Source: Nitrosomonas sp. Nm166 (GTDB lineage: Bacteria; Pseudomonadota; Gammaproteobacteria; Burkholderiales; Nitrosomonadaceae). From it: a DNA stretch of 41,845 nt. The stretch spans positions 1 through 41,845 of the forward strand of contig NZ_FONE01000031.1 of the NCBI RefSeq assembly GCF_900112825.1. The letters are read 5' to 3'. How positions within the stretch are numbered: the first letter of the stretch is position 1; every line of letters starts with the position of its first letter. A program made the translations under genes and the position numbers. The notes below the pieces were generated by a model. It searched no databases and had not been told where the DNA came from. It saw only the letters and a list, made by a program, of their open reading frames with translations. This document shows, one piece after another, positions 27,062 through 41,283 of this stretch.

Positions 27062-27886
27062 ATGCTACAGGCAAAATTATCGCTCAAGTTCGCCAAAATT
27101 GATGGAACAACACGCCTAGTGGCGCGAGATCACTTCGGTCCGCTAGTAGTACAAAAACCGCTTTATCCGGAAGGACGAGAGATTTGCCATGTAGTAATTA
27201 TCCATCCACCGGGCGGCGTTGTAAGCGGCGATCAATTGGAAATTACGACTCATATTGATGCATTCGCAAATGCGCAAATTACGACCCCAGGCGCTACTAA
27301 ATGGTACAAAGCCAATGGGCGCACCTCGCAGCAAACGATCAGAATTAATATAAATAAAGGCGGCGCACTTGAATGGGCGCCTCAGGAAACTATTTTTTAT
27401 AACAACGCCAATATAGAAATCGATCATCAAGTTACCTTGAAAGATGATGCAACCTACATTGGTTGTGAAATATTATGTTTTGGCCGCACTGCTTCAGGAG
27501 AAACATTCAATAACGGACAAATCAAGCAACGTACCAGCATCCAACGAAATGGAAAAATGATTTGGTTAGAACAAATTCGGCTACAAGGCGAAAGCACAGC
27601 CATGCATGGCTCCTTAGCCCTATCAGGCAAAACAGTGTGCGCTACGCTTATTCTGACAGGAAAAACGATCCCTCAACCATTGATTGATTTGGCAAGAGAA
27701 GAAGCAGAAAAGATTGCCAAGGGTAGCGGCCAAATCGGCATCACGCAGCTTAAATCGATTGCCGTAGCGCGCTATTTAGGTAACTCGAGTGAAATAGCGC
27801 GGCACGTCATGCTATGCATCTGGGGCCTGTTTCGCCCGGAGATTCTCGGACGCTCTGCAATCATTCCCCGCATGTGGAATACCTGA
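27062..27886 (+). CDS. ureD: Urease accessory protein UreD
   Basis: A 274-residue UreD (UreH), a scaffold that binds apo-urease with UreF and UreG during nickel insertion. Family stretches are VVIIHPPGGVVSGDQLEI, NAQITTPGATKWYK, LEWAPQETIFYNNANIEI and a C-terminal VARYLGNSSEIARHVMLCIWGLFRPEILGR. No good ribosome binding site precedes the ATG at 27062. It heads the ureDABCEFG cluster; the 95-base gap to ureA is the largest in the operon and shows no terminator. Confidence 0.95.
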   Translation: MLQAKLSLKFAKIDGTTRLVARDHFGPLVVQKPLYPEGREICHVVIIHPPGGVVSGDQLEITTHIDAFANAQITTPGATKWYKANGRTSQQTIRININKGGALEWAPQETIFYNNANIEIDHQVTLKDDATYIGCEILCFGRTASGETFNNGQIKQRTSIQRNGKMIWLEQIRLQGESTAMHGSLALSGKTVCATLILTGKTIPQPLIDLAREEAEKIAKGSGQIGITQLKSIAVARYLGNSSEIARHVMLCIWGLFRPEILGRSAIIPRMWNT

Positions 27887-27981
27887 TTCATTACTTGTTA
27901 ACATAAGGTAATTTTTAAAATATCAGATGCTGCAGTAACTTATAAGAAATAAAACATGTTATTTTATCCAGGAGAAAAACT

Positions 27982-28284
27982 ATGGACTTGACACCGAGAG
28001 AAAAAGACAAGTTGCTGATATTTACTGCCGGATTACTTGCTGAAAGGCGTAAAGCCCGCGGCCTGCGGCTTAATTACCCAGAAGCTGTTGCGCTGATCAC
28101 TTGTGCGATTTTGGAAGGAGCCAGAGATGGCCGGACAGTAGCAGAACTGATGACCGCCGGTCAGAAAATATTGACCCGCGCTGACGTCATGGAAGGTGTT
28201 CCCGAAATGATTCCGGACATTCAAGTTGAAGCAACTTTCCCAGACGGAACCAAGCTGGTTACTGTGCATCATCCGATTATCTAA
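27982..28284 (+). CDS. ureA: Urease gamma subunit
   Basis: A 100-residue UreA, the small structural subunit of the three-subunit bacterial urease. It begins [23 protein letters not shown] and has the conserved [21 protein letters not shown] and [26 protein letters not shown] precedes the ATG. It is followed by ureB after 25 bases and ureC, so the subunits are separate (not the fused Helicobacter form). Confidence 0.97.
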
Positions 28285-28309
28285 CTGATCAGAATTACAG
28301 GAGATCTAC

Positions 28310-28630
28310 ATGAGATTACCATTAGTGCCAGGCGAAGTATTTACTGAACCGGGTGAAATCGAGCTGAATGCTGGCAGAAAAACCAAAACCTTAACCGTTT
28401 CTAATGCAGGGGATCGCCCAATACAGATTGGCTCTCATTTTCACTTTTACGAAGTTAATTCTGCCATGAAATTTGATCGGGAAGCTGCTTATGGCATGCG
28501 CTTGAATATTATGGCCGGCACGGCTATTCGCTTTGAACCGGGACAAGAAAGAACCGTTGAACTCGTTGAGCTTGCGGGGGACCGGATCGTTTATGGATTC
28601 AATCAAAAAGTGATGGGGAAACTGAAATAG
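28310..28630 (+). CDS. ureB: Urease beta subunit
   Basis: A 106-residue UreB structural subunit. Typical stretches are [62 protein letters not shown] and [26 protein letters not shown] lies before the ATG. It sits between ureA and ureC with short spacers, consistent with stoichiometric co-expression of the (UreABC)3 core. Confidence 0.97.
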
Positions 28631-28662
28631 TTAATATCACGTTGATTTCACAGGAGTAAAAA

Positions 28663-30369
28663 ATGAGCTTAAAAATTTCCCGGCACATCTATGCTGAAAT
28701 GATGGGTCCAACGACTGGCGATCGCGTCCGTCTAGCCGATACAGAACTTTTTATAGAAATTGAAAAGGACTTCACCACGTATGGGGAAGAAGTGAAGTTT
28801 GGCGGTGGAAAAGTGATTCGCGATGGCATGGGCCAGTCCCAGCGTAATCATGCAGACGTTATGGATACCGTCATCACCAATGCAATCATTATTGATCACT
28901 GGGGGATTGTTAAAGCGGATATCGGCATCAAGAATGGCAAAATCGCAGCGATCGGCATAGCCGGGAACCCGGACATTCAGCCTGACATTACCATGAATAT
29001 TGGTGCTGCTACTGAGATTATAGCGGGTGAAAATCTGATCGTTACAGCCGGGGCTGTCGATACGCACATTCATTTCATCTCACCACAGCAAGCTGAAGAA
29101 GCGATGATGAATGGCATCACTACCATGCTCGGCGGCGGCACAGGCCCTGCGACTGGTACAACAGCAACAAGCTGTACATCAGGACCCTGGCATATTCATT
29201 CAATGTTAAGAGCATCGGATGGATTGGTCATGAATACAGGCCTTTTCGGTAAGGGTAATGCCAGCTTGCCAACACCGCTGGAAGAACAGATTCTGGCTGG
29301 AGCATGCGGCATGAAACTACATGAAGACTGGGGTTCCACTTATGCGGCCATCGATAATTGCCTGACTGTTGCAGATAAATATGATGTCCAGGTTGCTATT
29401 CACACAGATACCATCAATGAAGGCGGCTATCTGGAAAACACCATCGCTGCCATGAAGGGCCGGACTATTCATACCTTCCATACCGAAGGCGCTGGCGGGG
29501 GTCATGCGCCGGATATCATTGCAGTTGTAGGTCAGGATAACGTTTTACCTTCATCGACCAATCCAACCCGCCCTTATACTGTAAACACACTTGATGAGCA
29601 TCTGGACATGCTGATGGTGTGCCATCATTTGCACGCTCATATTGCAGAAGATCTTGCCTTTGCGGAATCACGCATCCGGAAAGAAACGATTGCCGCCGAA
29701 GATATTTTGCATGATATGGGCGCTATTTCGATGATGTCTTCTGATTCTCAAGCAATGGGACGCATCGGTGAAGTTGTCCTGCGTACCTGGCAAACGGCGC
29801 ACAAGATGAAAATACAGCGGGGCACATTGCAAGAAGATAATTCCAAACATGATAATTTCCGGGTGAAGCGCTATATCGCCAAATACACCATCAATCCCGC
29901 CATTACGCACGGCATTTCGCATGCAGTCGGCTCTATTGAGGTCGGCAAGTATGCTGATCTGGTGTTGTGGAGACCTGCTTTCTTCGGTGTAAAGCCATCC
30001 ATGATCTTAAAGGGCGGAATGATCGCTGCAGCGCTGATGGGTGACCCCAATGCTTCGATATCAACACCGCAACCGGTGCATTACCGCTATATGTTTGGCG
30101 GCTATGGCGGAGGGATCAAAACATCGTGTTTCACCTTTGCTTCACAAGCAGCGCTCAGTGCTGACCTAGTCGATCAGCTAAAGTTGGATAAAAATATCAT
30201 TCCCGTAAAGAATACCCGGAATCTGCGCAAGAAAGACATGATTCACAACAGCGCAACGCCTAAAATGGAAGTTGATCCGGAAACCTACGAAGTACGTGCT
30301 GATGGACAATTATTGACATGTGGTGCAGAAGATGTGCTGCCTATGGCGCAGCGCTATTTCCTGTTCTAG
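28663..30369 (+). CDS. ureC: Urease alpha (catalytic) subunit
   Basis: A 568-residue UreC carrying the dinuclear nickel site that hydrolyses urea to ammonia and carbamate. All expected ligands are visible: H135 and H137 in DTHIHFI, the lysine to be carbamylated, K218, in [10 protein letters not shown]247 in VAIHTDT, H273 in [10 protein letters not shown] and D361 in SSDSQAMG. The mobile flap has C320-H321 in MVCHHLHAH. Length and motifs indicate an active enzyme. CAGGAG precedes the ATG. In an ammonia oxidiser this would supply both ammonia and CO2, but the ammonia-oxidation genes are not in this window. Confidence 0.99.
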
Positions 30370-30382
30370 GAATAAAAAATAA

Positions 30383-30913
30383 ATGCTTACGCTGAATACT
30401 AAAATAGATCACACAGAATCAGTTTTTGCGCAACTCATTCTACCCTACGAAATGCGCGAGAATAGCCGGCTAAGAACGGTACTTGCGTCGGGTGAGGAAG
30501 TTGCGATTTTTACCGTACGGGGCACCATATTGCGCAACAATGATCTGCTCAAAAGCAATGATGGACGCGTAGTGCAAATCATCGCTGCCCGCGAACCTGT
30601 TTACCGGATTACCTGCCGCACACCTCATGATTTACTGCGCTGCGCCTTTCATTTGGGAAACCGCCATACACAAACCCAGGTTGGTGAAGCTTTCTTGCGG
30701 ATTCACCAAGATACGGTATTAAAGCAAATGCTGGAAGGTTTAGGTGCTACTGTCGTAGCAGAAAATGCACAATTCGAGCCGGAATCAGGCGCTTATGGTG
30801 GCGGAGGACATCATCACCATGGCGATGGTCATTATCATGCGCATGGCCCCCTTGCACCCATACCCGCACGACAAAAGATTCATCGACCTTCCGATACACA
30901 ATCCAAGGAATAA
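30383..30913 (+). CDS. ureE: Urease accessory protein (nickel metallochaperone) UreE
   Basis: A 176-residue UreE that delivers nickel to the UreDFG-urease complex. The conserved dimer-interface histidine is H95 in HLGNRHTQTQV. The C-terminal tail is Gly/His-rich (H143-H146, H150, H152, H154), a nickel-storing tail found in some but not all UreE proteins. It starts 13 bases after ureC, with AGGAA upstream. The ureF start follows two bases after its stop. Confidence 0.95.
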   Translation: MLTLNTKIDHTESVFAQLILPYEMRENSRLRTVLASGEEVAIFTVRGTILRNNDLLKSNDGRVVQIIAAREPVYRITCRTPHDLLRCAFHLGNRHTQTQVGEAFLRIHQDTVLKQMLEGLGATVVAENAQFEPESGAYGGGGHHHHGDGHYHAHGPLAPIPARQKIHRPSDTQSKE

Positions 30914-30915
30914 TC

Positions 30916-31593
30916 TTGCAATCTGCCCTATTGCTTCGCCTGCTGCAACTGGCTAGTCCATCATTACCCATCGGTGCCTATACCTATTCGCAAGGCCTGG
31001 AATCAGCTATTGAAAAAGGTACAGTCTATGATGAGCGCTCGGCGCGCGCGTGGATTACTGAGTCTTTAGGTATTGTTGCAGATTTTGAAGCACCCATCGT
31101 ATGGCGCCTGCTGAGAGCTTTTGCGGCACGTGATGCTGCAACGGTCAATTATTGGACCGAATGCTTTATTGCCGCACGTGATACTGCCGAGTTTCGTGCA
31201 GAAACCATTCAGATGGGATATTCCTTAGGCAAACTCATCATGGATTTGAAGATTGCAGACGAATCACTGCAGGCGATATTGGCAAGCCAATCAGAAATCC
31301 CTTTACCCACTGCCTTTGCTTGTGCTGCAGAAGCGCTTGCTGTACCGCATGAAGCTGCATTGCTGGGCATGCTATTTTCTCTGGTTGAAAATCAAGTGTT
31401 AGTTTGTGTTAAGTCCGTTCCACTCGGCCAAGTCGCCGGGCAACGCCTTTTATTTTCCCTGCACGCCATGATTGAAACCGCATCGTTACGCGCGCAGCAG
31501 CTCAAGGATGATGAATTATCCAATTGGTCGCCGGGGTTGTCATTGCTGTCCATGCAACACGAAACGCAGTACAGTAGAATTTATCGATCGTAA
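30916..31593 (+). CDS. ureF: Urease accessory protein UreF
   Basis: A 225-residue UreF, which with UreD and UreG forms the activation complex and gates GTP hydrolysis by UreG. Family stretches are [21 protein letters not shown] near the N-terminus and [15 protein letters not shown] towards the C-terminus. The start is a TTG at 30916, supported by AAGGAA at 30905-30910 and by the family N-terminus. It lies two bases after ureE, so translation is probably coupled. Confidence 0.95.
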
Positions 31594-31610
31594 TTTTTTG
31601 GAATGGAAGC

Positions 31611-32246
31611 GTGAACAAACAATCAAATCCTCTTCGCGTTGGCATCGGTGGTCCCGTTGGATCGGGAAAAACTGCTTTATGTGAAGCATTGAGTAAAAAA
31701 ATGCGCGATCGCTATGAAATGGCTGTCATCACCAATGATATCTACACCAAAGAAGATATGGAGATCCTGTTGCGCGCCAATGCCCTGCCGCCTGAGCGTT
31801 TGATGGGCGTAGAAACAGGTGGATGCCCGCATACGGCGATCAGGGAAGATGCATCTATCAACCTTGAAGCCATTGCGCGCATGACTGCCGATTTTCCCGA
31901 TCTTGATCTTATTCTGGTCGAATCTGGAGGTGATAATCTCGCCTCTACCTTCAGCCCCGAACTGTCCGATCTGACCATTTATGTAATCGACGTTGCCGCC
32001 GGTGAAAAAATACCGCGCAAAGGCGGCCCCGGCATCACGCGCTCAGCACTTCTTGTCATCAACAAAACCGATCTTGCTCCTTACGTCGGTGCAAGCTTGG
32101 AAGTGATGGCGCAGGATGCAAAAAAAATGCGCGGAGACCGGCCATTTGTATTTACAAATTTACATACTGGCGAAGGCGTTGAGCAAATTGTGGATTTCAT
32201 TGTGAAACAAGGGCTACTGGAAGAAGTAAAACAACAGCGAAGCTGA
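31611..32246 (+). CDS. ureG: Urease accessory GTPase UreG
   Basis: A 211-residue SIMIBI-class GTPase powering nickel insertion into urease. P-loop GGPVGSGKT is at residues 13-21, the nickel-binding Cys-Pro-His motif is in [17 protein letters not shown], the switch region is [13 protein letters not shown] and the base-recognition motif is VINKTDLA. It starts with GTG at 31611 after GGAAG. It is the last gene of the urease operon and converges with nikR. Confidence 0.97.
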
Positions 32247-32390
32247 TTGACTTCTTTCATTAACTAAATTGATAGATATTGATTCAATTGGATGATGTTT
32301 TAATCGATAACTATTTAAAAACCAATAAATACATGGCATTACTCATACGATCTGCATGAAAACTTCACGCAGCCGGGTCAATAGTAATCG

Positions 32391-32852
32391 TTAAGTGAGC
32401 GGACTGCTATGTATATGAGGTACAGATGAATGCTCGTGCATTTGCTGTGAGAGTTCGATTGGCACAATATGCAGCTTGCCGTGCCGTACACCATTGGTTG
32501 CAATCACCTGATTGGCGAAACGTCTGACATCCTGAATGGTGCCCCGCAGAATAACGACTTCAAGGCAGTTATCGTGATCCATATGAACATGCATACTCGA
32601 CAGCGTCAAGTCATGATGCTGGTGCTGTACAGACGTCACATGACTGGCCAGATCCCTTTGATGGTGGTTATAAATATAGCTAAGGGTAGCAATACAATAA
32701 CCTTTATTATCTTTCTGCAACCGGGCAGTCTCAAGATAGTTACGGATAAGATCGCGGACTGCCTCTGAGCGATTAATATAACCCTGTGCATGCGCCATCT
32801 TGTCGAATTGCTCAAAAAGCTGATCATCCATCGAAACAGTAAAACGTTCCAT
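32391..32852 (-). CDS. nikR: Nickel-responsive transcriptional regulator NikR
   Basis: A 153-residue NikR. The ribbon-helix-helix DNA-binding domain is at 1-45 (MERFTVSMDDQLFEQFD ... NRSEAVRDLIRNYL). The ACT-like nickel domain keeps the high-affinity square-planar ligand set H77, H88, H90 and C96 (QHQHHDLTLSSMHVHMDHDNC region), aligned one residue later than in E. coli. AGGGGA supports the ATG at 32852 over a TTG one codon earlier. It lies 93 bases downstream of the TonB receptor gene on the same strand and converges with ureG. Its likely target is the inverted repeat at 35082-35120. Confidence 0.95.
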   Translation of the reverse strand: MERFTVSMDDQLFEQFDKMAHAQGYINRSEAVRDLIRNYLETARLQKDNKGYCIATLSYIYNHHQRDLASHVTSVQHQHHDLTLSSMHVHMDHDNCLEVVILRGTIQDVRRFANQVIATNGVRHGKLHIVPIELSQQMHEHSSVPHIHSSPLT

Positions 32853-32945
32853 CAATAATTTCCCCTGAATCTACTTACAAAATTTCCCACCTAATAACCC
32901 GATTTTATCCACCAATGAACAGAAATTGTAAATTCATTTACTGAC

Positions 32946-35024
32946 TTAATAATTAGCCACCAAATTGACGCGAAATGAGCGGCTTTCAATCGGATGAAAA
33001 TGCAAATCAGCTACCCCAGCAGCAGGCTCACCAGGAAGCCTGGAAGTGTAGTAATAGTCGATTGCATGCGCATGCGTATTCAATAGATTGAATCCTTGCA
33101 ATAACACACGTACATTTTTGCTGATCTTGTAACCGATCTGACCATTCAGCGTCACGGTGTGATTGGATTGCACGCTGTTATCCTCGATGAGCGGGCGCTT
33201 GCCAAAATAGCGCAGTTGCATGCTCCCCAGAAAAGGGCCAGTGTTGTCTACTGAAATTGCCAGCTTACCTACCCCTCTGATTGCCCCGGGTATGTGATCA
33301 CCATTCGGATCGGAATCACTAAAACGCGAACGTGCCAGCGCATAGTCCAAATCGATCATTAACCAATGAGCTGGCATATAGAATGCTGATAGCTCAAACC
33401 CTTCCCGCTTGCTCGGGCGGCTTGCTTCAGTCGTTCCGGCATCGCCAACGAATAGCAGTTCTGAATCCAAATCCAGACGAAACAAGGCGAAGGAAGCCTG
33501 CAAGCCGGGAACAATGGCAGTGCGCAGTCCGACTTCATAGCCCGTCGAACGTACCAGCGGGTTTACTCTGTTAATGGGGTCACCTGATTTGGGGTCCACA
33601 GTGGAGGTTGTTCCTCGCGCATCATTACTATGAAAGCCACTGCCATAATTAAAATAAAATTCAGTTTGTGCCCAAGGCCCAAAAATCAAGCTCAGCTTGG
33701 GATTCGTCATACTGTCATAGCGATTACCCGAGTTAGCGCTTTGTTGGCTGTTGACGTCAAACCAATAATAGTCCGAGCGTACACCCGCCACGCTGCGAAA
33801 TTTTTCCAGCCACTGTATGCTGTTCTGATAATAGATTCCCACACTATTCTGGTTAATATGATCCTTGCGAGTAGTCGATAGTGTCTGGCGCTGTTTTGTG
33901 CTGAGCAGGCCATTGTCGATTACATCGTTCTGGAACTGAGCACCCACCGTATTTTCAACTTCAAACCCAGCAATTTTATTTACCCACAGGTGACTCAAAT
34001 TTATGGCAGACTGAAAACGCTTATCAACTTGGGAAAATTGATCCCCATTTACAGGATCATCCAGGAAATAAGTAAAATTTGAAAATAATGCCAGATTGGT
34101 ATGGAGCGTATACAGGTTTAGTTGCGTAACACCGAAACGGCTAGTATGCTGCAGCGCACTTGAAAGACTGAAGCGATGCGCTTCACCACCATCACTCGGA
34201 TCAATGGTGCCCAATCGGGAAACCAAGCCGCTTGCTTCTGCCCGCTGTGGAATCTGATCAGTTGAATTCCAGTTTCCACCATAGCCCATTGCCGTGATGT
34301 TGAATTTGGTCGATCCCGCTTCCTGGCTATAGCGTAATACCGCGTTAAACTTCTTGAAATCCTCATGCTTGACCCAAGGGCCATCTTTAGTGAACAGTTC
34401 CATAGCATACAGAACATTGCCACTTCCCACTGCATGTGATTTTGCCACTAAACCCCGCATGAATCCCTGCTGTCCTAGGCCATAACTGGCAATGCCCTTT
34501 GGCAGCTTATCAACGTAATTCATGCTGACGGCGCCGGCTGAGGAGAAATCGCCTTGATCCGCATAATACGGTCCCTTCAAATACTGCATATTGCCGGCCA
34601 GTTCCGGAATAATAAAATTAGTATCTGCCCAGCCCTGCCCATGGCCATGCGAACGCTGATTGACCAGCATGCCATCGACGGTAATGCGCAAATCGGTGCC
34701 ATGATCAAGATTAAACCCACGCAAGAAATACTGATTAGCCTTCCCTTCACCGCTATGCTGGGTAACGATTAGGCCGGGCACACTTTCCAGCAATTCTCCT
34801 GGCCGATAAACTGTGCGCAGATCGAGTTGCTGCTTCAGAACAGTGCCTTCATTGGCAGAATTTGCACTGCCTATCAACTCTTTCGCATTGGCACGTACCG
34901 TTACCTCTCTAAGTGCCGGTACGCCCGCAGCATTAACTAAAGAAGGCACTTCGACCAGCGCAAGAACACTGCATAAAATTATCGTTCGAAATAGTGCTGT
35001 AGCAAATCCTGTCGCTTCTTTCAC
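32946..35024 (-). CDS. TonB-dependent outer-membrane receptor, probable nickel uptake
   Basis: A 692-residue TonB-dependent receptor. A signal peptide (about 1-32, ending SLVNA) is followed by a TonB-box-like REVTV and a plug domain (about 70-165; GELLESVPGLIVTQHSGEGKANQYF and LRGFNLDHGTDLRITVDG). A His-containing RSHGHGQGWAD lies in the plug, and a 22-strand-type barrel ends in ...VNLVANY. The GTG at 35024 has GGGAGAA upstream. It is transcribed towards nikR, and the candidate NikR operator overlaps its promoter region (TAATAT -10-like at 35078-35073). Nickel specificity is inferred from context, not from the protein sequence. Confidence 0.88.
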   Translation of the reverse strand: MKEATGFATALFRTIILCSVLALVEVPSLVNAAGVPALREVTVRANAKELIGSANSANEGTVLKQQLDLRTVYRPGELLESVPGLIVTQHSGEGKANQYFLRGFNLDHGTDLRITVDGMLVNQRSHGHGQGWADTNFIIPELAGNMQYLKGPYYADQGDFSSAGAVSMNYVDKLPKGIASYGLGQQGFMRGLVAKSHAVGSGNVLYAMELFTKDGPWVKHEDFKKFNAVLRYSQEAGSTKFNITAMGYGGNWNSTDQIPQRAEASGLVSRLGTIDPSDGGEAHRFSLSSALQHTSRFGVTQLNLYTLHTNLALFSNFTYFLDDPVNGDQFSQVDKRFQSAINLSHLWVNKIAGFEVENTVGAQFQNDVIDNGLLSTKQRQTLSTTRKDHINQNSVGIYYQNSIQWLEKFRSVAGVRSDYYWFDVNSQQSANSGNRYDSMTNPKLSLIFGPWAQTEFYFNYGSGFHSNDARGTTSTVDPKSGDPINRVNPLVRSTGYEVGLRTAIVPGLQASFALFRLDLDSELLFVGDAGTTEASRPSKREGFELSAFYMPAHWLMIDLDYALARSRFSDSDPNGDHIPGAIRGVGKLAISVDNTGPFLGSMQLRYFGKRPLIEDNSVQSNHTVTLNGQIGYKISKNVRVLLQGFNLLNTHAHAIDYYYTSRLPGEPAAGVADLHFHPIESRSFRVNLVANY

Positions 35025-35081: not shown

Positions 35082-35120
35082 CAGAATGTATGATAAATTT
35101 ATTTATTTTCATACATTCTG
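35082..35120. promoter_or_regulatory. Candidate NikR operator in the divergent promoter
   Basis: Perfect 12-base arms, CAGAATGTATGA at 35082-35093 and TCATACATTCTG at 35109-35120, flank a 15-base AT-rich centre. The inner hexamers GTATGA and TCATAC are the E. coli NikR half-sites, which are separated there by 16 bases; here the gap is 15. The site lies between the divergent receptor (GTG at 35024) and ABC transporter (ATG at 35212) genes, with nikR itself in the receptor transcript. The repeat is seen; binding is inferred. Confidence 0.8.
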
Positions 35121-35211
35121 AAATAAGCCTCTGTGAACTGTGAATAGGGATTTCTCACTCAGCACACGACTTGCAATATATATTTTTGAAGAGAGAAATC
35201 AGGGAACCGTG

Positions 35212-36180
35212 ATGAGAATGCCCATTAACTATATTGCAATTTTCTTATTATTCTTAATAACTTTCTCCTTTCAAACTGCAGTTTCTGCATCGAATAAGCA
35301 TAAGAAGCTCGAAATCGTGACCACCGTTTCTCCCATCACCAATATGGTGCAAAATATTGGCGGAACTTATATTAATGTAACCGGCCTTGTGCCCGCTGGA
35401 ACCGATTCTCATACATATGAACCTGCTCCTTCCGATGTAAAAACGCTGCGAGCAGCCGACATGATTATTGTTAATGGCCTTGATCTGGAGCTACCCACTT
35501 TAATATTGGCAAAGAAAATAAAAAAAGCCGGAACTCCAATCCTGCAACTGGGAAACCGTGTACTCAAGGAAGAAGACTGGCAGTACGATTTTAGTTTTCC
35601 GCGCGAACACGGGCATCCCAATCCTCATTTATGGTTAAACATCGAACTGGTCATGCGGTATGCTGAAATAATCAAGGAAAATCTTATTGCGCTTGATCCG
35701 GCGAACAAGCAAGGATATCTGGCAAATACGGCAACTTATCTCGCCAAGCTGCAGAAACTGGATCAAGCAATTTTTAAATGTGTTGCAACAATTCCCGAGA
35801 GCAATCGAAAACTGATTACCTATCATGATTCCTTCGCTTATTTCGCTCCCCGGTATGGCATGACAGTGATTGCGGCCGTGCAGCCTGCTGATTTCTCCGA
35901 ACCTGGTCCGCAGGAAGTCATTAGTATCATTAAGCAAATCAGAAAAACAGGCGTGCCGGCAATATTCGGTTCCGATGTCTTTCCCAGTAAAGTAATGGAA
36001 CAAATTGCGCGCGAAGCGAATGTCAAATTCATTGATCAACTCTCTGATGATGAGTTACCTGCCCCACCCAATCATTCTTTCATTGGCATGATGGTCAGCA
36101 ACATGACTGTCATGACAGAGGCGCTCAGCGGCAACCCAACCTGTATGGCCAATGTTGATGCAAGCAATAGCGCCTTCTGA
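35212..36180 (+). CDS. Metal ABC transporter periplasmic binding protein (TroA/ZnuA family)
   Basis: A 322-residue cluster A-I metal-binding protein. It has an N-terminal signal peptide (about 1-26, no lipobox). Metal ligand candidates are H67 in GTDSHTYEP, H139 in NPHLWLN, H205 in TYHDSFAYFAPRYG and D275 in FIDQLSD, a His3Asp set like TroA or ZnuA rather than the His2GluAsp manganese type. There is no long His-rich loop, only HGHPNPH (133-139). The ATG at 35212 follows AGGGAA; the frame is open from 35140 but lacks a good start there. The gene overlaps the ATPase gene by 29 bases. The NikR-type operator upstream suggests nickel as the cargo; zinc remains possible. Confidence 0.88.
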   Translation: MRMPINYIAIFLLFLITFSFQTAVSASNKHKKLEIVTTVSPITNMVQNIGGTYINVTGLVPAGTDSHTYEPAPSDVKTLRAADMIIVNGLDLELPTLILAKKIKKAGTPILQLGNRVLKEEDWQYDFSFPREHGHPNPHLWLNIELVMRYAEIIKENLIALDPANKQGYLANTATYLAKLQKLDQAIFKCVATIPESNRKLITYHDSFAYFAPRYGMTVIAAVQPADFSEPGPQEVISIIKQIRKTGVPAIFGSDVFPSKVMEQIAREANVKFIDQLSDDELPAPPNHSFIGMMVSNMTVMTEALSGNPTCMANVDASNSAF

Positions 36181-36976
36181 TTTGCAATTGCATTCTGTCG
36201 TCAATTTAAGCAATGTTACTGCCGCTTATGAGCAAAATGTGGTATTTACAAATCTCTTCCTGGAAATCACCGCAGGTCAATTTGCCGGTATCGTAGGCCC
36301 TACTGCCTGTGGCAAAACTACTCTTCTCAAAACTATCTTAGGTGTACACCCTGTTATTTCCGGTCAAGTACAATTGCACCAAGATCATCCAATAAAAGCA
36401 AAGCCAGGGACTGTTGGTTATGTGCCGCAACTTAGCAGTGTCGACTGGAATTTTCCGGTGACTGTAGAAGAAGTGATCATGATGGGACTCTACATCAGTA
36501 GGCGTATCTGGCCTTGGCTCAGCAAAGAGGAGCGCAGAAGTGTTCATGATCTGGCTGATCGATTGGGCGTTGATGACTGCCTGAAACAGCATATTAGCAA
36601 TATATCAGGCGGCCAGCGGCAGCGTGCATTCCTTGCACGTGCCCTAATCAGCAATCCCAAACTTCTGATACTTGATGAGCCCACTTCGGGAGTCGATATC
36701 AAAACCCAGCATGAGGTATTGCAGCTATTGAGTGATATCAACAATGAAGGGATCACCATTTTATTGACCACTCATGACCTCAATGCGGTCGCTTCTCACC
36801 TGCCCTGGGTTATCTGCTTTAATAGAGGCGTTGTCGCGCAAGGCCGGCCTTATGACATTTTTACCAATGAAATCCTAACTCAGACCTATGGCGGTAACAT
36901 TGTCATCGTTAAACACGAAGGGCATCTTTTGATCGCCAATAGCACCCCTCTCAACTTTGAGAATCAAAATCAATAA
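36152..36976 (+). CDS. Metal ABC transporter ATP-binding protein (ZnuC/MntA type)
   Basis: A 274-residue ABC ATPase of the zinc/manganese importer family. The Walker A motif GPTACGKTTLLK is at about residues 49-60, the Q-loop VPQLSSVDWNFPVTVEEV is typical of this family, the signature is ISGGQRQR, Walker B is LLILDEPTSGVD, and the switch histidine is in TTHD. It starts 29 bases inside the binding-protein gene and ends overlapping the permease start (TAATG), so the three genes are translated as a unit. Confidence 0.92.
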   Translation: MLMQAIAPSDLQLHSVVNLSNVTAAYEQNVVFTNLFLEITAGQFAGIVGPTACGKTTLLKTILGVHPVISGQVQLHQDHPIKAKPGTVGYVPQLSSVDWNFPVTVEEVIMMGLYISRRIWPWLSKEERRSVHDLADRLGVDDCLKQHISNISGGQRQRAFLARALISNPKLLILDEPTSGVDIKTQHEVLQLLSDINNEGITILLTTHDLNAVASHLPWVICFNRGVVAQGRPYDIFTNEILTQTYGGNIVIVKHEGHLLIANSTPLNFENQNQ

Positions 36977-37806
36977 TGGAATTTCTTCTCGAACCATTCG
37001 AGTATGAATTCTTTCGTCGTGGCTTGCTTGCAGCACTGATGGTTGGCGCTTCAGGCGGCTTGATCGGTGTCTATGTAGTGCTGCGTGGCATGAGCTATGT
37101 CGGTCATGGTTTATCTCACGCGGCAATTGGCGGAGCCGTGCTAGGCTTCGCGCTGAACCTCAATTTCTATGCCGGTGCATGCACGATAGGTTTACTCGCT
37201 GCCCTGGCGATCGACAGAATTACTAAAAATAACAAGATTAAATTGGATGCCGCAATCGGGATTGTCACAACCGCCATGTTTGCGTTGGGTGTGGCAATCG
37301 TAAGCAAGCTGCGAAATTTTAGACAAAACTTCGAGGCTGCCCTGTTCGGCAATATCCTTGGAATCACTGAGCAAGATTTGGTGGTTATCGGGCTTGTCAC
37401 AACCCTCACACTGATCACAATGTTTTTTTTGTATCGGGCGCTGCTTTTTTCTACATTTGATAGCGAAGCTGCCCACATATTTGGAATCAGAACCGAGTCG
37501 GTACAACTGCTATTCTTGTTTTTACTTACTCTCTTCGTTATCGCGTCCCTAAACGTAGCTGGTGTCACCATGGTTGCTGCGACACTCATTGCGCCTGCCA
37601 TGACTGCGAGAATGCTGACAGACAGTTTTAGCAAAATGATCATTTATTCAGCACTGATAGGTTCTGTAACAGGTATGACCGGTATGTATTTAAGCTATAT
37701 TTTTAATGTAGCTTCTGGTGCAACCATCGTTTTGTTTGGCGCATTGTTATTCAGTCTATCCCTATTCGCAAAACCGCTTCGTAATTGCCAAAAAGGTACC
37801 GAATAA
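36976..37806 (+). CDS. Metal ABC transporter permease (ABC-3/ZnuB family)
   Basis: A 276-residue inner-membrane permease of the ABC-3 family with seven to nine hydrophobic helices. Family stretches are GVYVVLRGMSYVGHGLSHAAIGG near the N-terminus, ALFGNILGITEQDL centrally, and NVAGVTMVAATLIAPAMTARML towards the C-terminus. It pairs with the ATPase and binding protein encoded just upstream; its start overlaps the ATPase stop by one base. A short CTGCT/AGCAG hairpin follows. Cargo is predicted as nickel from the NikR-type operator. Confidence 0.92.
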   Translation: MEFLLEPFEYEFFRRGLLAALMVGASGGLIGVYVVLRGMSYVGHGLSHAAIGGAVLGFALNLNFYAGACTIGLLAALAIDRITKNNKIKLDAAIGIVTTAMFALGVAIVSKLRNFRQNFEAALFGNILGITEQDLVVIGLVTTLTLITMFFLYRALLFSTFDSEAAHIFGIRTESVQLLFLFLLTLFVIASLNVAGVTMVAATLIAPAMTARMLTDSFSKMIIYSALIGSVTGMTGMYLSYIFNVASGATIVLFGALLFSLSLFAKPLRNCQKGTE

Positions 37807-39336: not shown

Positions 39337-41094
39337 CTATGCGGTATTCAAATTCCGCATAGCGGTTGCATGGCTTTCAATGTAGCGCTGATATTTCTTT
39401 TCTTTAATAGTATTGATATGCACCAGAATCAAGCCATCAATACAATTTGAAAATTTGGGGTCAACATTAAAACCGAAAAATTCGCAGCCTCCCGGCTGAC
39501 ATAATTCTACATATTGCTTATACAGAACAGGCACTTTGACATTCAGATCATCCATTTTTTCCTTAAAAATGCTAAAAGCCTTCTTATATTCAACTTCATC
39601 TGTAACATGCCTGAATGGTACAAAATCTTTAATCTGATCAAAATTAAAAGGCATTCTAGGTTTAGCAATCGATCTGTCATTGCCAAAAAGCGTTGTGTAA
39701 AAACTTGCGATCACTTTTTGAGCGGGTTCAGGCCAGGAAGTACTCAGTGAAACCGGACCAAACAAGTAGCGTACCTCTGGATGCTGATAAAGATAAGCAC
39801 CAATCCCATACCAGAGATAATCCAGGCTGCGCTTTCCCTGATATCTGGGTTGAATAAAGCTGCGCCCTAACTCAATCGCATGTTCAAGATAAGGCATAAA
39901 TGTCTTGTTGAAGGTAAATAAGCTATTGGTGTATAAACCTGTTTCCCCATATTCCTTAAGGATTCTAGAGGCTTCTCCGATTCGATAAGAGCCGATAATC
40001 TCCAGTTCGTCTTCGTCCCAGAGAATCAGGTGACGGTAATAGCGATCATAGCTATCGATATCCAGGGCATTGCCTGTTCCTTCCTGCACCTGCCGGAAGG
40101 ATAATTCGCGCAGCCGCCCTATTTCACGCATTACACTGGAATTTGGCAGATAGTCAAACAGATAGATATGCTTTCCATCCTGGGTTTTACCGATCAATTG
40201 CGAGGCTTTCATTTCCTTGCGGATTGATTGGGTACGAACTGGATGGATAATATTTTCAATCGGCTTGAACAGTTCTTTTTTCTTTTTCTTGCCTAATAAA
40301 TAGACCTGCTTGCGCATTAATTTTGCCACGGCTTTTTTGGATAAATCCATGGCTGCGATAGATTCCCATGGAATCGGTTTGCCGATCCTGAATAAAATTT
40401 CGCTGCCTTTTTTATTGAACATTTCATTGATCAGCATCATCGTTCCCAAGGGCTTGTAAATACTTGAAAGGCCATAAAACAGTGTTGAATTCTTACCGCC
40501 AATATAGACTGGAACAATGGGTGTCTTGGTTTTCTTAGCCAAAGATAAGAAACCGGTTTTCCATTTACCATCGCGAATACCCATCGGAGAAATCCGTGAA
40601 ACTTCTCCGGTTGGAAACAGAATAACCGCCTGATCTGCTTCCAGTGCTTCGATGATTTGATTCATGCTGCCGCGATGATTGGCCGATTTTGACAAATTAT
40701 CGACCGATAAAAGCAAGCTTTGCAGTGGATCAATACAATTCAACATCGTCGTTGCGACAATCTTCACATCGCTCCTGATCTCTGATATCAACTTAAGAAG
40801 CGCCAACCCATCCAGCGAACCCAGCGGATGATTAGCAACAATCAATACACGACGCTGATCTGGAATGCGTGCCCGGTCTTTACTGGAAACTTGAAAAGTA
40901 AAATTAAAATGCTCCAGCACGGCATCGTTAAATTCCAATCCTTCCAGATGCCGATGCGTTTCAATAAAAGAATTAATCTCTTCCTGATGCAGCAGCTTCT
41001 TTAATAACGAAGAAGCGGTCTTCATCAAAGGCTTATCACTGTTCTCATCCGTATGCTGAAAATAATCTTTCAGCAAAGCATCCACATCAAGCAT
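39337..41094 (-). CDS. Two-domain acyltransferase, OlsF-like (ornithine-lipid type)
   Basis: A 585-residue fusion. The N-terminal half is a PlsC-type acyltransferase: NHPLGSLD with H89 and D95 (an H-x5-D spacing), FPTGEVSR at about 160-167 and IVPVYIGGKN. The C-terminal half (about 320-585) is a GNAT-like N-acyltransferase resembling hemolysin/OlsB proteins (RELSFRQVQEGTG, SLDYLWYGIGAYLYQHPEVRYLFGPVSLS). This matches bifunctional OlsF, which N-acylates ornithine and then O-acylates lyso-ornithine lipid, making phosphorus-free membrane lipids. I chose the ATG at 41094 (GGAG nine bases upstream); an ATG at 41109 is also possible. It converges with the GGDEF gene 23 bases away. Confidence 0.82.
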   Translation of the reverse strand: MLDVDALLKDYFQHTDENSDKPLMKTASSLLKKLLHQEEINSFIETHRHLEGLEFNDAVLEHFNFTFQVSSKDRARIPDQRRVLIVANHPLGSLDGLALLKLISEIRSDVKIVATTMLNCIDPLQSLLLSVDNLSKSANHRGSMNQIIEALEADQAVILFPTGEVSRISPMGIRDGKWKTGFLSLAKKTKTPIVPVYIGGKNSTLFYGLSSIYKPLGTMMLINEMFNKKGSEILFRIGKPIPWESIAAMDLSKKAVAKLMRKQVYLLGKKKKKELFKPIENIIHPVRTQSIRKEMKASQLIGKTQDGKHIYLFDYLPNSSVMREIGRLRELSFRQVQEGTGNALDIDSYDRYYRHLILWDEDELEIIGSYRIGEASRILKEYGETGLYTNSLFTFNKTFMPYLEHAIELGRSFIQPRYQGKRSLDYLWYGIGAYLYQHPEVRYLFGPVSLSTSWPEPAQKVIASFYTTLFGNDRSIAKPRMPFNFDQIKDFVPFRHVTDEVEYKKAFSIFKEKMDDLNVKVPVLYKQYVELCQPGGCEFFGFNVDPKFSNCIDGLILVHINTIKEKKYQRYIESHATAMRNLNTA

Positions 41095-41283
41095 AACGCT
41101 GTACTCCATCCTGCAAATTGAATGCGGTCAAGATATAGGATTAATATGACAAAAAAATGACGTTAAGTATTTCCTTGTTTTTCTAAAATAAGATGAATTA
41201 ATAGAAACATCTGAGTGGCATATTCGCATACAGCTACGCAACTCTAATCTATTCTTCGCGCAGACAGACTTAACACACTAAGC

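Follow-up and report, generated by a model that had tools for sequence, protein, structure and literature searches.

A predicted NikR operator between a TonB-dependent receptor gene and a ZnuABC-type importer points to nickel uptake for urease in Nitrosomonas sp. Nm166

The NikR operator of Escherichia coli is GTATGA-N16-TCATAC, as given in an excerpt of PMC7055735, and according to a portion of PMC545781, NikR signals are inverted repeats with a length of 27-28 bp, which in enterobacteria take the form GTATGAT-[N13/14]-ATCATAC. NikR-controlled nickel receptors are already known: passages of PMC11247825 list the outer-membrane receptors FecA3, FrpB4, Bll6948 and Daro_3944 as nickel transporters, and FecA3 and FrpB4 as repressed by NikR. 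The binding proteins of cluster A-I importers are described, in an extract of PMC7463823, as serving zinc, manganese or iron.

We analyzed a stretch of 41,845 nucleotides from Nitrosomonas sp. Nm166 (hereafter the window), in which a palindrome with GTATGA and TCATAC half-sites lies between a TonB-dependent receptor gene, followed by nikR, and a three-gene ABC importer of cluster A-I. Sequence comparisons make it very probable that this palindrome is a NikR operator repressing both the receptor-nikR unit and the importer, and that the importer brings in nickel for urease.

The palindrome and its gene neighborhood

The palindrome at 35082-35120 reads CAGAATGTATGA TAAATTTATTTATTT TCATACATTCTG, with perfect 12-base inverted arms at 35082-35093 and 35109-35120 on either side of a 15-base spacer. 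We predict that it is a NikR operator, annotated without strand, whose core, GTATGA-N15-TCATAC, occupies 35088-35114. GTATGA-N12..18-TCATAC has a single exact match in the 41,845 bases of the window against 0.03 expected, and three of 100 shuffles had one. When up to three mismatches were allowed at N15, the window held 22 matches against 17.7 expected; the palindrome has no mismatch, whereas all others have two or three. The operator starts 58 bp from the start of the receptor open reading frame and ends 92 bp from the start of the binding-protein gene. A promoter scan found two candidates against 1.0 expected, and we drew no conclusion from it.

The window operator is one of three places in the whole genome (3.2 Mb in 126 contigs) that match GTATGA-N12..18-TCATAC, and one of two with N15. 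For the second N15 site (G000:C116:3600-3626; L003:1501-1527), we estimate that about 0.2 exact sites are expected per such genome for 12 fixed bases. The second site lies between two small-protein genes, with no metal gene recognized alongside among the open reading frames inspected, and is probably due to chance. The description of the locus as a complete nickel uptake regulon is fair for the one operator of this genome, but the operator does not stand ahead of urease here.

On one side of the palindrome, a TonB-dependent outer-membrane receptor is encoded at 32946..35024 on the minus strand (PF07715 and PF00593), with nickel or a nickel chelate as its predicted substrate. The gene for the nickel-responsive ribbon-helix-helix repressor NikR (32391..32855, minus strand) follows 90 bp behind it on the same strand, and its product scores 201.1 bits against the NikR equivalog NF002815 (cut-off 83). 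No terminator-like site was found in 32200-33000, which includes the gap between the two genes; judging from this arrangement, nikR and the receptor gene are probably co-transcribed. NikR of the window aligns with E. coli NikR (1q5v) over residues 2-134, and the His and Cys positions of the His/His/His/Cys nickel site are kept. Its C-terminal tail is rich in histidine, as is that of the importer permease of Nitrosomonas marina Nm22 (L067:7700-8629).

On the other side, the plus strand encodes a ZnuA/TroA-type periplasmic binding protein, proposed here to bind nickel (35212..36180; PF01297, 244 bits), an ABC ATPase (36152..36976; PF00005) and an ABC-3 family permease (36976..37806; PF00950, 235 bits), a combination that places the importer in cluster A-I (ZnuABC/TroA). 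The binding-protein gene most likely starts at the ATG at 35212, not at the GTG at 35140 that opens the longest reading frame. The urease operon ureDABCEFG (27062..32246, plus strand) lies 2.8 kb from the operator, and all seven products match their own families (UreD, PF01774; UreF, PF01730; UreG, TIGR00101; UreA, UreB, UreC and UreE above NCBIfam cut-offs). Urease is the presumed nickel consumer at the locus. The window also encodes a bifunctional ornithine-lipid synthase, OlsF, at 39337-41109 (796 bits; cut-off 620).

The initial annotation, made from the window alone, had described perfect 12-base arms, flanked by divergent genes for a receptor (with nikR behind it) and a TroA/ZnuABC-type importer, about 3 kb from a complete urease operon; our reading of both arms, the family matches and the measured distance agree with it on each of these points. 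It had also called the gap of 15 rather than 16 bases worth noting. The inverted half-sites of the window span 27 bp and the published signals span 27-28 bp (in the portion of PMC545781 cited above), so the gap falls within the known range and we dropped unusual spacing as a finding. By its sequence, the predicted NikR operator is an ordinary, conventional one.

Recurrence of the operator in related loci

We compared 41 named loci that carry the binding-protein gene, 35 from Nitrosomonas, Nitrosospira or Nitrosovibrio and six from MAGs with broader labels; near-duplicate loci were dropped only for the 17-site alignment below and are still present in the other counts. Two arrangements dominate. 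In the divergent type, the binding-protein gene lies opposite the receptor gene and nikR, often with urease genes close by. In the ureE type, which accounts for nine of the 41 loci (L062, L063, L066-L071 and L075), the gene next upstream on the same strand is ureE, which encodes the urease nickel chaperone. Its distance is 8-21 bp in six loci; in L063 it is 92 bp, in L075 about 0.2 kb and in L062 480 bp. UreE of L066 and L067 scores above a UreE equivalog cut-off, and none of the nine loci has a receptor match or an operator site. The gene context of remote relatives with 32% identity (L107 and L108) offered nothing informative.

Across the 41 named loci and the window (512,773 bases), half-sites matching at 11 or more of 12 positions occur 32 times at N15 and 0-5 times at each of 17 other spacings between N8 and N25. 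With the single exception of L041:12618, these N15 sites are all found upstream of the binding-protein gene. Outside the ureE type there are 32 loci, two of which, L065 and L074, come without upstream sequence and were set aside; 25 of the remaining 30 carry the site, at the same position upstream of the same genes, as befits a NikR operator. A good site is missing from L043, L056, L059 and L061, where nikR is present and the best match is 9-10 of 12, and from L072, which has none of the named neighbor genes; L049, L051, L057, L060 and L064 have two sites each.

Beyond GTATGA and TCATAC, the 19 sites examined in 15 other loci have zero to three further pairs, compared with six in the window. 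The outer six arm bases are thus variable and the conserved unit is GTATGA-N15-TCATAC, so that the 12-base arms proposed for a search of related genomes are retained there in their core and not in their outer halves. In an alignment centered on 17 sites, taken from 26 loci with one, identity to the consensus is 80% in the spacer against 43-46% in the flanks; these sites were chosen for having the motif, which makes their half-site identity (98%) partly circular, whereas the spacer identity and the spacing control were not chosen in this way.

A palindrome that arose by chance, or one that serves another regulator, might show outer arms that are not conserved and an A/T-rich core, as this one does, and some exact N15 sites in relatives do fall within open frames, apparently by chance. 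Such sites in L081 (in ureC), L096 and L084 were not counted as operators. However, the recurrence at a single spacing upstream of the importer led us to reject a chance palindrome, both half-sites are identical to those in the E. coli operator (per the excerpt of PMC7055735), and nikR belongs to the same cluster, leaving this reading very improbable. The NikR operator put forward in the initial annotation, and its shared control of receptor and importer, both gain support from this comparative evidence.

In a tree of the binding protein, a single branch (support 99/95) separates the operator-bearing loci from those of the ureE type, so the operator arrangement may have arisen once and then been kept. 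Among genus genomes, an exact N15 site is present in 17 of the 26 with nikR and in 2 of the 23 without it, some of these sites being inside open frames; the reversed control pattern was seen in 0 of 49. Exact N15 sites also occur upstream of ureD in two genomes (L102:12255 in G006 and L089:432 in G004), with nikR found in G006 and not in G004, which is 75% complete. This suggests that NikR could also control urease in some Nitrosomonas.

Outside the genus, receptors 51-52% identical to that of the window adjoin nikR in three genomes of other families (G063, G070 and G076); G063 has an exact N15 site between receptor and nikR, and none was found in G070 or G076. Within the genus, G047 has such a site (L099:10020) some 110 bp ahead of a TonB receptor gene that is followed by a NikABCDE-like set of binding-protein, permease and ATPase genes, an importer of the SBP_bac_5 type. 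Nickel models are among the better NCBIfam matches of this set, but the scores (nikA 173-192, nikB-type 216-252 and nikE 267 bits) are all below cut-off; the same genome also has a ZnuABC-type importer. At L038:3219-5888 and L106:4570-7083, the receptor beside the operator looks chimeric, with an N-terminal piece resembling the window receptor (read by eye) joined to a receptor of about 39% identity that has its own plug domain.

The metal carried by the importer

Judged by its sequence alone, the binding protein is zinc-like. H67, H139, H205 and D279 are invariant in alignments of 17 and of 28 sequences and align with the ligand positions of 5kzj, the zinc protein AztC. Two AztC zinc ligands, His138 and His204, are named in the extract of PMC7463823. 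The predicted ligands are therefore of the His3-Asp type of ZnuABC/AztABC, and among proteins of solved structure, those closest in sequence carry manganese, zinc or iron annotations. Because the predicted site aligns with that of a zinc protein, it does not single out nickel, and with a sequence that looks zinc-like the case for nickel is built on regulation and context. The binding protein reaches the cut-off of none of the eight NCBIfam models listed, and none of the zinc equivalogs is reached by the importer (score/cut-off in bits: AztC 192.7/350, ZnuA 90.3/268, AztB 202.6/280, ZnuB 134.1/284, AztA 174.3/220 and ZnuC 112.3/306).

We next consider the distribution of the importer in 49 genus genomes, this one and 48 others, many of them drafts (75-100% complete). 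Close relatives of the binding protein (E <= 1.1e-55) are found in 30, the urease alpha subunit in 28 and nikR in 26; G021, with only a 28%-identical PF01297 relative, was left out of the first count. Urease and importer occur together in 28 genomes, urease alone in none, the importer alone in two and neither in 19. The Fisher p of 1.1e-11 makes no correction for kinship and overstates independence, because the genomes are related and many are drafts. The two genomes with the importer and no urease alpha match are G002, whose locus (L068) carries ureD, ureA and ureB, and G005, a 91%-complete draft that also has nikR. The co-occurrence that the initial annotation proposed to look for is borne out, in that all 28 urease genomes and all 26 nikR genomes have the importer, which is found without nikR in four (G002, G004, G010 and G037), and nikR is present in 24 of the 25 genomes with a receptor at least 73% identical. 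The exception is G011, whose receptor (L103:3357-5441) is 80% identical; it has no nikR, urease or importer match and no exact N15 site in the locus. In G028 and G029, nikR is accompanied by a receptor that is broken or more distant.

Neither NiCoT (NicO) nor CbiM/NikM has a match in any of the 49 genomes, HupE/UreJ has none in this genome, and no recognizable NikA is encoded here: the sole PF00496 protein (748 aa) scores 60.5 bits against nikA (cut-off 393) and matches OppA best (66.1 bits), and at least one PF00496 match is present in 20 of the 21 genomes without urease too. The nickel-importer families tested were these four. Neither HupE/UreJ (22 of 49 genomes; p 0.40) nor ZIP (46 of 49; p 0.25) is associated with urease.

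In six genomes (G010, G015, G031, G034, G041 and G046), a HupE/UreJ match and a 44-50% identical receptor lie together in one open frame of 900-960 residues. Pfam confirmed both parts in the single case examined (L100:1615-4410; G041:C24), and G028 has a shorter version. A stretch resembling a signal peptide, read by eye, lies between the HupE/UreJ domain and the receptor and suggests that cleavage could release the receptor from the product. No urease match was found in G015 and G046 of these six, so the fusion may serve another nickel or cobalt enzyme.

The importer could instead carry zinc or manganese, as annotated, with the operator serving receptor-nikR only and NikR merely sharing the promoter region. 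This would agree with the predicted zinc-type ligands and with the source names among the 120 homologues listed (zinc, zinc/manganese or unspecified metal transporter). Moreover, this genome yielded no other PF01297 protein, so the binding protein could also serve zinc or manganese. Yet the importer is missing from 19 of the 21 genus genomes without urease and adjoins ureE in the nine loci above, and two ZIP-type genes in this genome, from a family matched nearly throughout the genus, are candidate zinc routes. A long His/Asp/Glu-rich loop near the site indicates zinc according to the extract of PMC7463823, and no such insertion was seen by eye in the binding-protein alignment. A Zur-like 18-base palindrome gave 0 matches with up to three mismatches, a weak point, as the consensus used may not be that of the host. 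As to an operator for receptor-nikR only, both sites of L057 lie between nikR and the importer in a locus with no receptor match. We consider a zinc or manganese importer improbable.

A site with zinc-like ligands, in an importer that is under nickel-type regulation and linked to urease, would also suit a broad divalent-metal importer (nickel with zinc and/or cobalt) that was recruited for urease and owes its selectivity to NikR regulation, not to the binding site. This possibility overlaps with a nickel importer, and since genomes that lack urease also lack the importer, selection seems to have acted on nickel; taken by itself, we find it rather unlikely.

A nickel importer for urease remains the reading we prefer. 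The importer is linked to nickel enzymes or to the nickel regulator, and urease co-occurrence and ureE linkage uphold the suggestion of the initial annotation that nickel is its likely substrate, the metal itself being what we infer. With sufficient cytoplasmic nickel, Ni-NikR would bind 35082-35120 and repress both divergent units, receptor-nikR on one side and the three-gene importer on the other, and repression of the former would amount to feedback of NikR on itself. When nickel is short, both units would be expressed. Powered by TonB, the receptor would then bring nickel or a nickel chelate through the outer membrane. In the periplasm, the nickel ion would be bound by the ZnuA-type protein, and the ABC transporter would deliver it to the cytoplasm, where UreE, UreG and urease would receive it.

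Comparison with known systems

Extended to relatives, these comparisons suggest that a whole branch of 'zinc' ABC importers in ammonia-oxidizing betaproteobacteria is probably a dedicated nickel importer of cluster A-I. Such an importer would have kept its zinc-type His3-Asp site, would stand under NikR control or beside ureE, and would be the main nickel route to urease in a genus where NiCoT and NikM/CbiM were not found. What appears new is the strong comparative evidence for a cluster A-I importer as the nickel importer of ureolytic Nitrosomonadaceae; no earlier report of it as a nickel system was found in the literature searched, the scope of which did not extend to Rodionov et al. 2006. 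If true, a nickel member would correct the annotation of this importer across a genus and supply the missing nickel entry for urea-based nitrification. The pocket looks zinc-like and the control looks nickel-specific, so the system would also allow a direct test of whether metal choice sits in the binding pocket or in the regulator.

Compared with E. coli NikR/nikABCDE, the locus has the same GTATGA and TCATAC half-sites, a nikR gene near its target and a NikR above the equivalog cut-off. It differs in the gap (16 bases in E. coli, 15 here), in an importer of the ZnuABC class, not the peptide/nickel class, and in a TonB receptor that shares the operator. With ZnuABC, AztABC and TroABCD it has in common the set of PF01297 protein, ABC ATPase and PF00950 permease, and the His, His, His and Asp positions that align with 5kzj. 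It differs in that the importer is below the NCBIfam cut-offs for ZnuABC and AztABC and is linked to nikR, ureE and urease, and that no Zur-like site was seen with the consensus used. By description, the receptor resembles the NikR-linked TonB receptors FecA3 and FrpB4, and also Bll6948 and Daro_3944, from which the system differs in the partner importer. The NikABCDE-like set of G047 likewise has a GTATGA-N15-TCATAC core upstream of a TonB receptor gene, but its importer is of the SBP_bac_5 type whereas that of the window is of the ZnuABC class.
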